64,000 nucleotides of DNA from an uncultured Opitutia bacterium (GTDB lineage Bacteria > Verrucomicrobiota > Verrucomicrobiia > Opitutales > UBA953), in the NCBI GenBank assembly GCA_945957395.1, contig CAMFKE010000009.1:1-64000 (forward strand), read 5' to 3'. A program made the translations under genes and the position numbers. The notes beneath the pieces are model-generated. The model ran no database searches. It was not told the origin of the DNA and saw only the letters and a list, made by a program, of their open reading frames with translations. Below are positions 36,113 through 43,348 of the stretch, piece by piece; within the stretch, counting starts at the first letter, position 1; every line of letters begins with the position of its first letter.

Positions 36113-38332
36113 TCACTTGGACTTCATCGCGTGCACGCCGTCCCAACCGGCGGGCGGAGGCGCGGCGAGGTATTCGGCGCAACGCGCGGCGAGAATTTCG
36201 GAAGGGCAGTGCTCCACGCCGGGGTCGCGACCGGGGAGCAGGGGCTCCAGCGGCATGGCGGCCTCGAAGCGTTCGCGCGCGGCGGCGAAATCCCGGCGCC
36301 AATAGAGGGCGAGCCCCTCCTCGTAGAGCCGCACGCACTCGCGCACGCCCGGCGCGGCCTCGTCGTCAAAGCAGACGGCCTCATAAAGGGCGACCGGGGC
36401 GGAACGCCCTTTCACGCGCCAAAGGTCGAGCTTGCGAAACAGGATGGGGCGGCCGGCGGAGCGGCGCGCGGCCTCGACGGTCTCGCCGGTCACGAGGGTG
36501 TAGACGCCGGCGGACTTGGCGCCGGACTCGCAACGCGCGGCGAGGTTCACGGTGTCGCCCATCATGGTGTAGTTGAAGCGCTTGGCGGAGCCCATGTTGC
36601 CCACCGTGGCCGGGCCTGTGTTGAGGCCGATGCGCATGCGCATGGCGTGAATCCGCACGGGCCACCTGGCACCCTGAGCCTTCCACCGCTCGCGCAGCTC
36701 GCCGAGGCGTTTCTGCATGCGCAGCGCGCAGGCGACGGCGCGGTGGGCGTGGTCGTCCAGGGGGACCGGGGCGCCGAACATGGCGACGATGGCGTCGCCG
36801 ATGTACTTGTCCAAGGTGCCCTCGTCGGCCTCCAGAATCTCGGTCATCGCGCCGAGGTACTCGTTCATGATCTCCACGAGCTGCTCCGGCGTGAGCACCT
36901 CGGAGAAGGAGGAGAAGCTCTGGATGTCGGAGAAAAACGCGGTGAGGGAAACCTGCTCGCCGCCGAGCCTGGGCTCCTCTCCGGCGGCGACCATCCTGTC
37001 GACGATGGCCGGGGCCAGGTAGGCGCCGAACATGCCCTTGATGCGGGCCTTCTCGTACTGCGCGTGAATGAAATCCAGCAGCACGAAGACCGCTGACAAC
37101 CCGAGCCCGTAGAGGACCGGCAGCAGCGGCAGGAACAGGTTGGCGCGGCCGAAAAGAAGCACCGCCGCGGCCAGATAGGCCAGGGGCACTCCGAACATGA
37201 GCGCCAGCCGCAGGGTCGAACGATGGTAGCGAGCCGGCGCTCCGACGGCGAAGGCGAAGACCAGGAACGCGCCGGCGAGGGCGAGCACCCACGGCCCCTC
37301 CAGCGGCCGGCGCAGCCACGAACCGTCCAGGAGATTGCGCAGGCAGTTGGCCTGGACCTCGACCCCCAGCATGCGACCAACGGGCGTGGGGAAACTGTCC
37401 TTGTAATGAACCTCCGAATACGGACCGACGATGACGGGCCGCCCCCGGAAACGCCCCCCACCGCGAAGCGCCCCGCTCCACCGATCGGGCGTGAAAAGGT
37501 CCTGCACCGGAGTCATGGGGAAGGTGCGGTCCTTGCCGGCGAAATTGATGATGCGCATGCGGTTGTCGTCGGGCACCGCGACGCCGAGCTTGGACGCGGC
37601 GCGCGCGACGAGCGACATGTCGGAGAACGAGGGGAAGCCAGCAGACAGGGAGGGCTTGGCCAGGGTCAGGCAGTCCTCGCGGAACGCCATGTGGGAGATG
37701 CCCCCGTCGGGATCAGGCCAGACGGTGACGAAGCCCAGCACGGACTCCGGACGCTCCTCGGGCAAAAGCGGCTCGTACGGGTCGCGCAACTCCACGACGC
37801 TCTCGGCGCGACCGGGGGCCGTCGCGCGCTCGACGAACTTGTAGTCGAAGCCGATGACCACCTTGTCCCGATGCCTGCGAATCGCTTCGGCAAACGCCCT
37901 GTCGCCGGACTCCGAGGGGCCGGGCCCGTCGAAGAAAAAGTCGAACACGACGACCGAGGCGCCGGCCTCCACGAGCCGGTCGAGCACGGCGGCGTACACC
38001 GCGCGGTCATACGCGAGGCCCTTGGGTTCCGACAGGAGTCGCAGAGCGGGCGAAGACTCCAACAGGCCGGCATAGTTCCCGGCCTTCATGGAGTGGTCGA
38101 AGCCGACGATTTCGACGCCGAGCTCGCGCGGGTCGTCTCCGCGGGTCTTGAACAGCCAGTGAAGCCAGTCGCCCACCTCGATGCCCTCGTGAACGGGGAC
38201 ATTCCTCTCGTTCTGCCGAAACTCGCCTTCGACAAAGGCGCCGAAAGCCAGGAGCGTCAGCAGAACGAAAAGCGCCCGACGCCGGCGGGCGTACAGGCGC
38301 ATGAGGGAGGCGGTGAACGAAACGCCGGCCAT
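36113..38332 (-). CDS. CHASE2-domain class III adenylate/guanylate cyclase
   Basis: The 739-residue product has an N-terminal membrane helix (about 19-36), a large extracytoplasmic CHASE2 sensor domain (about 40-340), a cluster of membrane helices (about 345-435) and a cytoplasmic class III cyclase domain (about 455-640). Both metal Asp residues are present (FSDIQSF and GDAIVAMFG), as is the adenine-selecting Lys in LDKYIGDA, plus MMGDTVNLAARCE with the Asn and Arg transition-state residues. The set predicts active cAMP synthesis. A short TPR-like tail follows. It is the third gene of an operon, 10 bases after the beta-barrel gene. Confidence 0.93.
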   Translation of the reverse strand: MAGVSFTASLMRLYARRRRALFVLLTLLAFGAFVEGEFRQNERNVPVHEGIEVGDWLHWLFKTRGDDPRELGVEIVGFDHSMKAGNYAGLLESSPALRLLSEPKGLAYDRAVYAAVLDRLVEAGASVVVFDFFFDGPGPSESGDRAFAEAIRRHRDKVVIGFDYKFVERATAPGRAESVVELRDPYEPLLPEERPESVLGFVTVWPDPDGGISHMAFREDCLTLAKPSLSAGFPSFSDMSLVARAASKLGVAVPDDNRMRIINFAGKDRTFPMTPVQDLFTPDRWSGALRGGGRFRGRPVIVGPYSEVHYKDSFPTPVGRMLGVEVQANCLRNLLDGSWLRRPLEGPWVLALAGAFLVFAFAVGAPARYHRSTLRLALMFGVPLAYLAAAVLLFGRANLFLPLLPVLYGLGLSAVFVLLDFIHAQYEKARIKGMFGAYLAPAIVDRMVAAGEEPRLGGEQVSLTAFFSDIQSFSSFSEVLTPEQLVEIMNEYLGAMTEILEADEGTLDKYIGDAIVAMFGAPVPLDDHAHRAVACALRMQKRLGELRERWKAQGARWPVRIHAMRMRIGLNTGPATVGNMGSAKRFNYTMMGDTVNLAARCESGAKSAGVYTLVTGETVEAARRSAGRPILFRKLDLWRVKGRSAPVALYEAVCFDDEAAPGVRECVRLYEEGLALYWRRDFAAARERFEAAMPLEPLLPGRDPGVEHCPSEILAARCAEYLAAPPPAGWDGVHAMKSK

Positions 38333-38342
38333 GAAAGCGGCC

Positions 38343-39395
38343 TCAGAAGGTGAGCGAGACGAGGGCGCCCGCCCCGGCGTTGTAGTTGGCGTAATCGGAG
38401 GCCTCGTCGGATTCGCGGAACTCGCAGGAGCCGAACACGCGCGCGGAGAGGTTCCTGTTGAAGAAGTAGGCGGCGGTCAGCGAGAGCGTGTGCAGGAAGT
38501 CATCGCGCCCGTTGGAAGGCCGGATGATGGAACCGCCCTCGGTGAAGTCCGAATACTGGAAGCGATACGCCGGGCGCAGCAGGAAGCTCGTGCCGAACAC
38601 ATGCGTGTACGCGAAGGTCGCGCCGAGGTCGTAGCGGTCGTAGCGGTCGCCCTCAACGGAGAGACCGGCGACGGACCTGGGCGTGCTCGTGAAGCGGTAG
38701 TCGGCGTCGAAGTCGGCGGAGATGAAATCGCGCTCGGAGAGTGTGAAGCGGTAGCCGCCGTGAAGGGCGGGGACCCACTCGGAATAGGTGGAAGAATAGT
38801 CGGCGAACGCGAAGTAGGCGGAGTAGCGAGCGGAGACGCCCGCGAACCATCCGCCGTGAGTCCACTCGGCCTCGAGGTGGCCCGTGTGCGTGTCGAAATC
38901 CAGACGGTCGAGCTTCACGCCGGCGGAATTGGCGATGTCGTGGTTCGTACGGCCCGAAAGCCAGCCGTACTTGAAAGTCTGATACCGGTAGCCGCCGGAG
39001 ACGGCGAGCTTGCCGTCGGCGAACGAGAAGGGCCCGGCGTTCACGCCGGCCTCGGCGGTGAACACGGAGACATCCGACCAGGTGGCGGTCTCGTCGAGCG
39101 CGGCGTTGCTGGTGTAGTAGTTCTGAAGGTCGGCCGCGGCGAAAAACCAGTCATGCGGAGGACGCTCCATCAAAAGCATCTGCGGGCCCACATCCTCAAG
39201 CTCGCCCTCGTAGAGCGAGGGCACTCGGGCGGTCGAGCCCACCGCCTCCACCGCCGAAGCGCCACGCTCGGCCTCCAGCCGGCGCCTGAAATCGGCGTCG
39301 GAGGCGGAGGCGGCGCGGTCGGCGGCGGACTGGGCGTGAAGGGCGCCGCAGGCGAAGGACGCCAGCGCGAGTACGGAAAGGAGGCGGGGAGTCAT
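38343..39395 (-). CDS. Exported outer-membrane beta-barrel protein of unknown function
   Basis: The 350-residue product has a Sec signal peptide (MTPRLLSVLALASFACGALHAQ), a helical spacer (about 24-60), then alternating aromatic beta-strands typical of an outer-membrane barrel: FFAAADLQNYYTSNAALDE, LAVSGGYRYQTFKYGWLSGR, FAGVSARYSAYFAFADYSST and a final strand GAGALVSLTF ending in Phe, as outer-membrane proteins usually do. An alternative start lies five codons upstream (39410). It sits between the FecR-domain protein (47 bases) and the cyclase (10 bases) in one operon and has no other recognisable domain. Confidence 0.85.
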   Translation of the reverse strand: MTPRLLSVLALASFACGALHAQSAADRAASASDADFRRRLEAERGASAVEAVGSTARVPSLYEGELEDVGPQMLLMERPPHDWFFAAADLQNYYTSNAALDETATWSDVSVFTAEAGVNAGPFSFADGKLAVSGGYRYQTFKYGWLSGRTNHDIANSAGVKLDRLDFDTHTGHLEAEWTHGGWFAGVSARYSAYFAFADYSSTYSEWVPALHGGYRFTLSERDFISADFDADYRFTSTPRSVAGLSVEGDRYDRYDLGATFAYTHVFGTSFLLRPAYRFQYSDFTEGGSIIRPSNGRDDFLHTLSLTAAYFFNRNLSARVFGSCEFRESDEASDYANYNAGAGALVSLTF

Positions 39396-39442
39396 GTCTA
39401 CCAAAGGCATTGTGTGTTTCTGACGGATACGGGTCGGACGGG

Positions 39443-42400
39443 TCAGTTGAACTTGCCCGCCGCATTGGAGGCGCCGACGGCCTGAATGTGCACGGGCGCC
39501 TCGGCGGAGGTCGCCGTGCCGGCGGCGCCGGACAGGGGTGCGCCCTGCAGGGTGATGGCGCCGCCCTGCACCCACACATGCGAGTTGATGCCATCGGCCG
39601 TCATGAGGCTCACCACGCCGCCCGCGGCGCCGGCGTCGCGCACATTCACGTTGTTCACGAAGTTCACGGCGCCCAGCACCGAGGAGCCGACATTGAGCAC
39701 GCCGTCGCGCGAATTGAGCCGCACCTGCACCCGGTCGGGGAAGGTCAGGTTTTGCAGGTTGATGGTGTTGGCCTCCATCAGGAGGCCGACATTGCCCGCC
39801 GTGGGCGACATGACGAAGTTCACGCCGTCGATGTCGATGCGATCCAGAGGCGGAATGGTGGGCGAGCCGATGACGGAGGCGATGAAGATATCGGAAGCCA
39901 CGAGCCGCCCGCCGTCGATGCGCACGGCGGTGGAGCCGACGATGCGGATCTCGCCGCTGGCGGCGTACTCGCCCGCGGCCACCGGCACATCGCCATCGCG
40001 GTCGTGATTGACCGTAGGAAGTTCGGCGCGCAGGGCGCTGCGCAACTCGACCGACGACAGTCGCACGGTGGCGGCCTCCAGGCGAATCCCCTCAAAGCCG
40101 TCGAAAGCATGGGCGCGGTACGAGCCGCCGGTCAGCGCCAGGTTTGCTCCGGGGGAGGCGGCGCCGAGAACGAGGGAACCGGGACGAAGGTCCGTGGACA
40201 CAAGGGCGCCACCGGTGTCGAAGACCTGAATGTGCGTGCCGGCGCTGACGAGCGTGCCCGCGCCGGAAAGGAGGATGTCCCCGCCGGTGGCGTAAACTTT
40301 GAGGTCGCCGGAGCGATGGTCCAGAGTGAGGCCGTCGGCCGTGATGCCCGAGAAGGAAACGAGGGTGAGCGAGCCGGGCGCGTCGGGATTGTAAGCGGGA
40401 TCCCAGACGACGGAGGAAGCCGGGCCGAAAGCGAAGCGGGCGGCCCGTATTTCCAAAGTGTTCAGCAGCTCAAGGCCGGTCAGCGTGAGCGAGCCGGAGA
40501 GGGCGAACTCGCCCGTGGCCACGACATCGGCGCGGGCGAGCGGAGCGACATCCGCAGAGTAAGCGCCGACCGGCCCCAGGTTGAGCGTGGTGGCTCCGCT
40601 GAAAACAATGTTGCGCGCGAGCAGTCCCGACACGGCGAGCGAGGCCGGGGAGCCGTCGGGCAGCACGGGATCGGCCGCCAGCCCGAAATCGGCGGCAGTC
40701 AAGGTGACTCCCGGCAACATCTTGTGGCTGTTCGGGAGCTCCAGCGGGAAACGGGTCACCGCGAAGCTGTCGAGGTCGTGGGTCTTGGCGTAATCGACCT
40801 TGCTCCCGCGGAAATCGGCCACGCCGGGCTTGAGCACATGCAAGGGCGCCGTGACGTCGCCGATGTTCTGCTCGGGCACCCACAGCAGGTTGTCGGTACC
40901 GACGGCGAAAATGTCCGTCCCGTTGATCATCACGCCCGACGCGTTGAAGCTGCCGGCCTGCGCCGTCGCGCCGGTGGCGGTGTTCACGGAAAGCCCCGTA
41001 TCCACCACGATGGTCACCGGGTTGGCCTGCGGGAAAATCACATTGGTCAAATCCACCCGACCGGCGCTCAGATGAACTTCGGCCGCGGAAACGGTGACGC
41101 CGTCGAGGGCGATGGTTTGGACGAGCGGGGCTCCGCCCAGGGAAATGCTGCCTGCGGCGGTGAGACTTCCCCCGGTCCACACGAGGCTGTCGACCGCCTG
41201 CATCGATATCTGAGCGGCGTTGAGGGTCACGCCTCGCGCGTTCAGCGCGGAACCGCGCAGCAGGGCGACGCCTCCGGCGGCCAAAGCCGAATCCGAAAGC
41301 GTCAGGGCGCCTCCGGCGGTAAGCGAGAGGTCCTGCGCGGCGCTCAGGTTGACCGCATCGGCGGTAATCGCGGTGGCGGCGGTCCATTCGAGCGCCCCGG
41401 CGGTGGACTCCATTACGGTCTCCGAAAGCGTCACGAAACCCGACGCGGCGTTCACCGACACCGAGCCGGCGGACACGGAGACGGCACCGGACACGGTGAC
41501 GCCCGCTGGGCCGACCAGCGAGAGCACGCCGGCTCCCGCATCCCATTCGCCGCCCAAGGCGAGAATGGTCTGCGTGGGACGATCGTACGAACCGCCCTCG
41601 CCGACCAGGGTCACCGTCCCCGTGGCGCCGGCGAAGCCGCTCCCGGAGGTGATGAAGCTGTTGCGCAACTCGACATCGCCGGCGGAGGCGGTGAAGGAGG
41701 CGCGGCCCGGAGTGGTCACAGTCGTGCCGGTGGAAAGCGACACGGCGGCGCCGGTCATGACGACCGAGTTGAGCGAAGAGCCGTTGAGCGTGGTCGAGGC
41801 CACGGTGACGGCCCCGCCGGAGTTCAGCTCCAGATGGGCGCCGTCGAGCGTGGAAGCGGTGACCGTCACGGACTGCGAGCCGTCCACGGTGATATTTCCC
41901 GGCGCCGTGATGGTGACGCCCGAAAGGGTAACTGCGCCCGACGGGGCCTGCAGCAGGGCCTCACCGGCGAGCGGGGGAGTCGACCCGCCCGCCGCAACCG
42001 CGCCGCCGGTCATGGAAAGGCCTCCCGTGGTGGCTTCGAGGAGGAGCGAGCCGGAAGGATTGGAAAGCGACACATCGGTGAGCGAGACGCCCGAAAAGCC
42101 GACAAAGCTGGCCTCGGTCGGCGCGGTGGTCGCGGTCGAAGCATCCAGCGTCGTGACGACGGTCGAGCCGGAGGCGATGTTGAGAGAATCCCCGGCGACA
42201 CGCAGCGCGGTGATGCCCGCGCCGGTCCGGAAATCCATGGAGCCGAAGGAAATGGCGTTGAGGCCGATGACATCGGTGCGCCCCGAGGGATCGCCGGACA
42301 GGTAGGACAGATCGAACACGCCGCCGGTCACGGTCAGATTTCCGGCCAGCACGCCGCGCACGGATAGGGGCGCTGAGGCGCTCAACGAGGCGGGCGCCAG

Positions 42401-43348
42401 ATCGACCGGGATGACCACCGGCGTCCTGAAAATGAAAGAGCCGGGCACGGGCGTCGTTCCCGGCTGGACCAGAGAAAGCCCGGCCGCGGTCGAAAGCGGA
42501 TCGGGCACCGCGGGCGAGGTCGGTCCGGAAACCAGGTTGGAAGCCGTGGCGAACTGGTCGGCGGCCTGCCTGATGACGGAGGAATCCACGACCAGGAAAT
42601 CGGTCTCACCGGCGGCGCCGACGATTGCCAGCCCGGTGGGGACCAGATCGCCATCCTCCACCTGCTGCCGCTGCACCCTCGCGGCCTGGCGAATCTTATC
42701 GCGCGAAGGCAACTCGGAGCGGAACCCGCCGATCAGTCCGGATTCCGACCGGAGGGCGCCCAAGTCGAAATTGAGCACCGGGCCGGGCTCGCCGCCGCCC
42801 TCCTCGGATGAGGGCCGGACAAAGGTCATCTGGCCGGCCGTGAGCGTCAGCGTGCGCCCGTCGGAAAAGCCGACCGTGGCCACGCCCTCCAGGATGAGCA
42901 GTTTGAAGCCGCCGTCGGCGGTGGCCGCCACGATGATCGTGGTGCCCACGACCGATGCCGTCGCCGAGTTGGTCACGATGGTCCCTCCGCCCTTGCCGGT
43001 GGGCGAATGGAAGAGCACCGATCCGCTCTCCAGGTTGATCGTGCGGCTCGACTTGTCGAAATGGAACACGGAGCTGGACCCCACCCGCGTGATGGTCCCG
43101 TCCGGCGCGGTGAGCTGCGCGCGCGACTTGCGTCCGGTCCGCACCAGGTCGGGCGCAAGCAGTCGGTCGTTGGCGGCGGCCTTGACGGCCTTGCGGGACT
43201 CCGGAGAGACGACCTGCACCTCGTTGACCACCTCGGTGAACACGGCCTCGGCGAACGGCGTCGGAGACTCCCCGGCCTGCGCGGCGTGACCCGCGCAAAG
43301 CGCGGCGCAGGAAATCAGAAAGGGAAGTCGTAGGGGGCGATGCATCAT
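39443..43348 (-). CDS. Giant exported FecR-domain protein with beta-helix-like repeats
   Basis: The 1301-residue product has a signal peptide (about 1-26), then a FecR domain (about 40-180) with RAQLTAPDGTITRVGSSSVF, ESGSVLFHSPTGKGGGTIVT, TASVVGTTIIV and LEGVATVGFSDGRTLTLTAG. The remaining 1100 residues are repetitive Ser/Thr/Gly/Ala/Val-rich strands (GAVTLSGVTITAPGNITVDG is typical), like beta-helical adhesin passengers. There is no C-terminal autotransporter barrel, and the protein ends NAAGKFN. It heads the operon with a barrel protein and a CHASE2 cyclase. Start: ATG at 43348 or 43345. Surface sensing or adhesion is inferred only. Confidence 0.85.
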   Translation of the reverse strand: MMHRPLRLPFLISCAALCAGHAAQAGESPTPFAEAVFTEVVNEVQVVSPESRKAVKAAANDRLLAPDLVRTGRKSRAQLTAPDGTITRVGSSSVFHFDKSSRTINLESGSVLFHSPTGKGGGTIVTNSATASVVGTTIIVAATADGGFKLLILEGVATVGFSDGRTLTLTAGQMTFVRPSSEEGGGEPGPVLNFDLGALRSESGLIGGFRSELPSRDKIRQAARVQRQQVEDGDLVPTGLAIVGAAGETDFLVVDSSVIRQAADQFATASNLVSGPTSPAVPDPLSTAAGLSLVQPGTTPVPGSFIFRTPVVIPVDLAPASLSASAPLSVRGVLAGNLTVTGGVFDLSYLSGDPSGRTDVIGLNAISFGSMDFRTGAGITALRVAGDSLNIASGSTVVTTLDASTATTAPTEASFVGFSGVSLTDVSLSNPSGSLLLEATTGGLSMTGGAVAAGGSTPPLAGEALLQAPSGAVTLSGVTITAPGNITVDGSQSVTVTASTLDGAHLELNSGGAVTVASTTLNGSSLNSVVMTGAAVSLSTGTTVTTPGRASFTASAGDVELRNSFITSGSGFAGATGTVTLVGEGGSYDRPTQTILALGGEWDAGAGVLSLVGPAGVTVSGAVSVSAGSVSVNAASGFVTLSETVMESTAGALEWTAATAITADAVNLSAAQDLSLTAGGALTLSDSALAAGGVALLRGSALNARGVTLNAAQISMQAVDSLVWTGGSLTAAGSISLGGAPLVQTIALDGVTVSAAEVHLSAGRVDLTNVIFPQANPVTIVVDTGLSVNTATGATAQAGSFNASGVMINGTDIFAVGTDNLLWVPEQNIGDVTAPLHVLKPGVADFRGSKVDYAKTHDLDSFAVTRFPLELPNSHKMLPGVTLTAADFGLAADPVLPDGSPASLAVSGLLARNIVFSGATTLNLGPVGAYSADVAPLARADVVATGEFALSGSLTLTGLELLNTLEIRAARFAFGPASSVVWDPAYNPDAPGSLTLVSFSGITADGLTLDHRSGDLKVYATGGDILLSGAGTLVSAGTHIQVFDTGGALVSTDLRPGSLVLGAASPGANLALTGGSYRAHAFDGFEGIRLEAATVRLSSVELRSALRAELPTVNHDRDGDVPVAAGEYAASGEIRIVGSTAVRIDGGRLVASDIFIASVIGSPTIPPLDRIDIDGVNFVMSPTAGNVGLLMEANTINLQNLTFPDRVQVRLNSRDGVLNVGSSVLGAVNFVNNVNVRDAGAAGGVVSLMTADGINSHVWVQGGAITLQGAPLSGAAGTATSAEAPVHIQAVGASNAAGKFN

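Follow-up and report, generated by a model that had tools for sequence, protein, structure and literature searches.

The window, a 64,000-nucleotide stretch of contig CAMFKE010000009.1 from an uncultured Opitutia bacterium, carries three co-directional and tightly spaced genes on the minus strand (positions 36113–43348; ORF list). The first (P0001; 39443..43348, minus; start Met at 43348) was identified by its open reading frame, translation and Pfam match as encoding a 1301-aa FecR-domain protein. It is followed by a gene for a 355-aa outer-membrane barrel with a C-terminal Phe (P0002; 38343..39410, minus; alternative start 39395) and by a gene that encodes, according to ORF and Pfam analyses, a 739-aa CHASE2 class III nucleotide cyclase (P0003; 36113..38332, minus). 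Open reading frames, translations and Pfam searches thus agree with the gene content given in the first-pass annotation, and its gaps of 47 and 10 bases hold as well: the FecR and barrel genes are separated by 47 nt when the barrel is read from Met 39395 (32 nt from the first Met at 39410), and 10 nt lie between the barrel stop and P0003. The eight flanking genes scanned are unrelated housekeeping or transport genes, including those for a UbiB-like ABC1 kinase, FeS assembly, an HflX GTPase and an ABC transporter; none encodes an ECF sigma factor, a cAMP phosphodiesterase or a TPR protein. A promoter scan at the locus found no sigma-70-like site and was uninformative.

P0001 has a signal-peptide-like N terminus (MMHRPLRLPFLISCAALCAGHAAQA), and hydropathy analysis revealed no strongly hydrophobic 19-residue stretch. 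The FecR domain (residues 68–156; 42881..43147, minus; PF04773, E 6e-9) is the only Pfam domain above cut-off. The N-terminal 350 aa show 37–49% identity to nine relatives, and TGRxSRA, GGG and GT motifs are invariant in the FecR domain alignment of P0001 with these nine. The conserved core of the family comprises the FecR domain together with the stretch that follows; the tail accounts for the variation in length among relatives (258 to about 1590 aa). The 'giant' protein of the first-pass annotation does reach 1301 aa, yet giant size is not an essential trait, given that relatives start at 258 aa. In a model of an orthologue (625 residues; pLDDT 85, pTM 0.61), the FecR domain and a few helices are followed by an all-beta, solenoid-like tail with high local confidence. 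Structure comparison matched the FecR part to 4m0n, an anti-sigma factor, and to 6ovk, the signalling domain of PupR; the tail had no significant match in the structure library, and the FecR family profile had no match among PDB sequences. The P0001 tail is long and repetitive and probably beta-helical. The 'beta-helix' of the earlier description is a model-based reading, since significant PDB matches are confined to the FecR part.

The barrel protein P0002 ends in ALVSLTF, and its final Phe is invariant among the 32 members of the barrel family. An AlphaFold model built on 32 homologues (pLDDT 84, pTM 0.81) has 12 strands and resembles outer-membrane barrels, with Z scores of about 20 to 12-stranded autotransporter beta-domains. 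The best structural matches are the autotransporter translocators EspP (Z 21), NalP and EstA, along with the FapF secretion barrel; the channels CymA, OmpG and KdgM are also matched. Sequence, predicted structure and fold matches all agree with the outer-membrane barrel and C-terminal Phe recorded for this gene at first pass. No Pfam family matched P0002 up to E 1, including Autotransporter, ShlB and POTRA, the family profile matched no PDB sequence and the model contains no plug-size domain. The most conserved stretch (PxLYxGExxDVGPQxLL) lies just before strand 1, where the mean share of the commonest residue is 0.60, versus 0.37–0.56 in the strands and 0.22 in the leader. On the basis of this conservation, the pre-barrel segment PSLYEGELEDVGPQMLLMERPPH (residues 64–86; 39153..39221, minus) is a candidate docking or plug segment.

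P0003 is the only class III cyclase and the only CHASE2 gene that a Pfam search found in the genome. Its CHASE2 domain (residues 59–355; 37268..38158, minus; PF05226, E 6e-29) is predicted to be periplasmic; it is flanked by hydrophobic segments at residues 20–38 and 349–419, and hydropathy indicates one transmembrane segment before the domain and a cluster of about three after it. The catalytic domain (36404..36946, minus; PF00211, Guanylate_cyc, residues 463–643, E 3e-23) aligned to adenylate cyclases in the PDB with a best E value of 1e-34 and retains the metal-binding aspartates D469 and D513, the adenine-type pair K509/D593 and N596/R600, so the full catalytic set attributed to this CHASE2 cyclase was recovered alongside the predicted membrane layout. 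The product is presumably cAMP. Five cNMP-domain matches were found in the genome. The CRP/HTH-like protein L109 lacks the usual cAMP-type pocket motif; a small cNMP-binding-domain protein with no HTH (L110; G000:C1:136682-136945) is the only one of the five to carry it, making L110 a candidate cAMP receptor.

The gene set recurs widely within the phylum. Scanning 84,980 species genomes with two short peptide patterns from the FecR N-terminal alignment recovered 37 loci, all titled Verrucomicrobiota, although carriers elsewhere are not excluded by patterns this short. Profiles derived from the window proteins recovered FecR and barrel genes jointly at 49 loci, counting the window, all from Verrucomicrobiota and a few of them sharing a genus. 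The two genes adjoin in 48 of these (1.4 kb lies between them in L045), and a CHASE2 gene, in 35 cases a cyclase, lies beside the pair in 36. Five arrangements occur: cyclase–FecR–barrel (21 loci), FecR–barrel–cyclase (4, including the window), a divergent CHASE2 gene with barrel–FecR (6) or with FecR–barrel (4), and a convergent form (1); start/stop overlaps are common among the CHASE2-bearing loci. In the other 13 loci the sequence examined contains no CHASE2 gene, some of these loci lying at contig ends. When the search was seeded with the barrel alignment instead (388 genomes of the phylum, 23 of which matched), FecR adjoined the barrel gene in all 19 neighbourhoods examined and CHASE2 was present in 16. 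At the level of the order, a FecR domain occurs within 7 kb of at least 28 CHASE2 genes, spread over at least 24 genomes. Each genome has between one and three CHASE2 genes and a handful of FecR genes, so that chance, roughly estimated at about 2 percent for each CHASE2 gene, should produce only a few such pairs. The gene set is real, conserved and beyond chance, and the association of FecR with CHASE2 cyclases across gene neighbourhoods, which the first-pass annotation had proposed to survey, does recur.

The module varies in composition at some loci. In L115, L116 and L117, a second small FecR gene (280–326 aa) follows the divergent CHASE2 cyclase, giving two FecR genes, a barrel and a cyclase. 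One locus (L122:4303-14921) has four FecR genes (258–1588 aa) around the barrel gene but lacks a CHASE2 gene within its stretch, and at another (L119:9138-11135), the one of the 36 CHASE2-bearing loci that does not have a cyclase, a 665-aa CHASE2 protein with no cyclase match is divergent from a barrel–FecR pair.

Among the window's closest relatives, the genes occur as a set and not as an operon. Within the family, the cyclase was found only in the window's genome (G000), G007 and G015 among the genomes searched, and FecR and barrel genes, tested in 13 genomes, were confined to the same three. The three genes are conserved together in relatives in general, as the first-pass annotation required of its reading, yet in G007 and G015, the two nearest carriers, they stand at separate places among unrelated genes; the operon arrangement itself is not conserved there. 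That the genes co-occur even when scattered argues for function over hitch-hiking. In a quick, midpoint-rooted tree, module cyclases split into well-separated clades. The window cyclase groups with that of G015 and, with f24 genomes, falls in a part of the tree made up mostly of CHASE2 cyclases without a barrel; the other part holds the majority of module cyclases. The separate clades suggest that the association persisted while the cyclase itself was recruited anew or exchanged, and repeated recruitment or exchange seems the simplest reading of the tree. Pairwise distances correlate more closely between FecR and barrel (r 0.80) than between either and the cyclase (r 0.60 and 0.53); shared species history would also produce such correlation.

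A second variant joins FecR and a barrel in a single polypeptide. In the same order, FecR–TPR–TonB-dependent-receptor-type barrel proteins of 1146–1215 aa are encoded at L049:5291-8731, L052:2252-5713, L053:3340-6873, L054:3097-6672, L055:4766-8413 and L059:6180-9704. The fusion gene lies directly beside a CHASE2 cyclase in L049, beside a CHASE2 hybrid histidine kinase in L052, and about 3.2 kb upstream of a CHASE2 cyclase in L053 and L054. Placing FecR and barrel on one chain, with a variable CHASE2 output, supports the view that FecR/barrel and CHASE2 are coupled parts. In L053, a 1053-aa exported-looking protein (L053:6896-10057) is encoded between the fusion and the cyclase. An apparent CHASE2–cyclase–FecR single chain (L063:3049-7068, 1339 aa; same contig as L099), which would have been direct evidence of contact, was rejected as a frameshift, since the cyclase C terminus continues in another frame that overlaps the FecR start.

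We consider it probable that the three genes form one trans-envelope sensing module that converts a surface signal into cAMP. The 12-stranded outer-membrane barrel and the exported FecR protein would sense a cue at the surface or close to it; in the periplasm, the FecR domain would then act on the cyclase in the inner membrane through its CHASE2 domain and so change cAMP synthesis. A chain from barrel and FecR to cyclase is the leading model because the genes are conserved in many arrangements and co-occur. Counting against it, 13 FecR–barrel loci show no CHASE2 gene, the genes stand apart in G007 and G015, and on the effector side the CRP-like L109 lacks the cAMP-type pocket motif. The conservation and co-occurrence give good support to the functional link in the chain from surface protein through barrel to cAMP that was first proposed for this locus; contact of FecR with the barrel and with CHASE2, the direction of signalling, cAMP as the product and the ligand are inferred.

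Type V secretion typically involves beta-helical passengers, and P0001 could be one, exported or anchored by the barrel in the manner of a split autotransporter, with the cyclase controlling expression of the adhesin. The barrel's best structural matches, autotransporter translocators and FapF, fit this explanation; however, CymA and OmpG are matched as well, the fold being a generic one of 12 to 14 strands, and no Autotransporter, ShlB or POTRA family was matched. Moreover, the FecR partners in L090, L091, L098, L106, L127 and L128 are only about 260–300 aa long, which leaves hardly any space, if any, for a beta-helix, so passenger export cannot be the shared core. We regard a secretion pair as unlikely. 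The matches to CymA, OmpG and KdgM would also suit a substrate-specific nutrient channel whose uptake, or the state of the envelope, is reported by periplasmic FecR and CHASE2 with no surface receptor, and the LysM–FecR proteins of Burkholderia suggest a function at the cell wall (PMC5192318); no transporter or catabolic gene, nor any other fourth gene, recurs beside the module across the loci compared, and we hold this reading to be distinctly improbable. The scattered genes of G007 and G015 would fit a neighbourhood without functional coupling, but the many arrangements across classes, the barrel-seeded recovery of FecR and CHASE2 and the all-or-none co-occurrence within the family make that explanation very hard to sustain.

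The trans-envelope sensing module resembles several described systems, and the earlier statement that it could not be linked to any was too strong: related but different gene sets are already known in Sinorhizobium, Campylobacterota and Burkholderia (PMC13001267, PMC9239204, PMC5192318). In Sinorhizobium meliloti, the barrel NsrA is reported to feed the CHASE2 cyclases CyaD1, CyaD2 and CyaK, with Clr as the regulator (PMC13001267, PMC5498481). That pathway resembles the proposed module in placing an outer-membrane beta-barrel upstream of cAMP-making CHASE2 class III cyclases; the window shares the cyclase with intact catalytic residues, and its barrel is genetically linked to that cyclase. Perception in S. 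meliloti is described with no FecR/beta-helix partner, in contrast to the module here, and the FecR protein SMc02177 is reported as a Clr target that is dispensable for perception (PMC13001267, PMC5498481). A CHASE2 adenylate cyclase is clustered with a FecR-domain outer-membrane protein in Campylobacterota (PMC9239204), and in the window the genes for an exported FecR protein, the barrel and the CHASE2 cyclase likewise stand side by side; that cluster also includes a phosphodiesterase and a TPR protein, of which the window module has neither, whereas the window has a separate 12-stranded barrel protein. The Burkholderia BiofilmReg operon, comprising an exported LysM–FecR protein, a CHASE2 histidine kinase and a response regulator (PMC5192318), likewise sets an exported FecR-domain protein directly beside a CHASE2 receptor but has no cyclase and no barrel. 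At the MtxA locus of magnetotactic bacteria, the gene for an exported protein precedes one that resembles the CHASE2 and adenylate cyclase families; unlike for the module here, the description cited mentions no FecR domain or barrel (PMC4439547).

The FecA–FecR–FecI and PupB–PupR systems share with the module the FecR fold and the logic of an outer-membrane barrel acting on periplasmic FecR. Three of their defining features were tested and none was found: P0002 has no TonB plug or N-terminal STN domain (Pfam to E 1; model), P0001 has no transmembrane or anti-sigma part, and no ECF sigma gene lies among the eight flanking genes, the output being a cyclase. The module is therefore not a FecA–FecR–FecI system. 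No paper joining FecR, adenylate cyclase and Verrucomicrobia was found in the literature searched, which covers few subscription journals.

With this module, outer-membrane-to-cAMP signalling would reach into Verrucomicrobiota, a phylum where the literature searched describes none. What CHASE2 domains sense has been stated as unknown (PMC5192318), and the compact, recurring set of FecR, barrel and CHASE2 cyclase genes offers a testable receptor chain for this domain. More tentatively, and at somewhat less than even chances, FecR-domain proteins may be direct periplasmic ligands of CHASE2 receptors, in which case a single outer-membrane-to-CHASE2 signalling principle would unite the Verrucomicrobiota module, the FecR–TPR–TonB-receptor fusions next to CHASE2 cyclases and kinases, and the pairs seen in Burkholderia and Campylobacterota. 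If true, this reading would say what CHASE2 senses.
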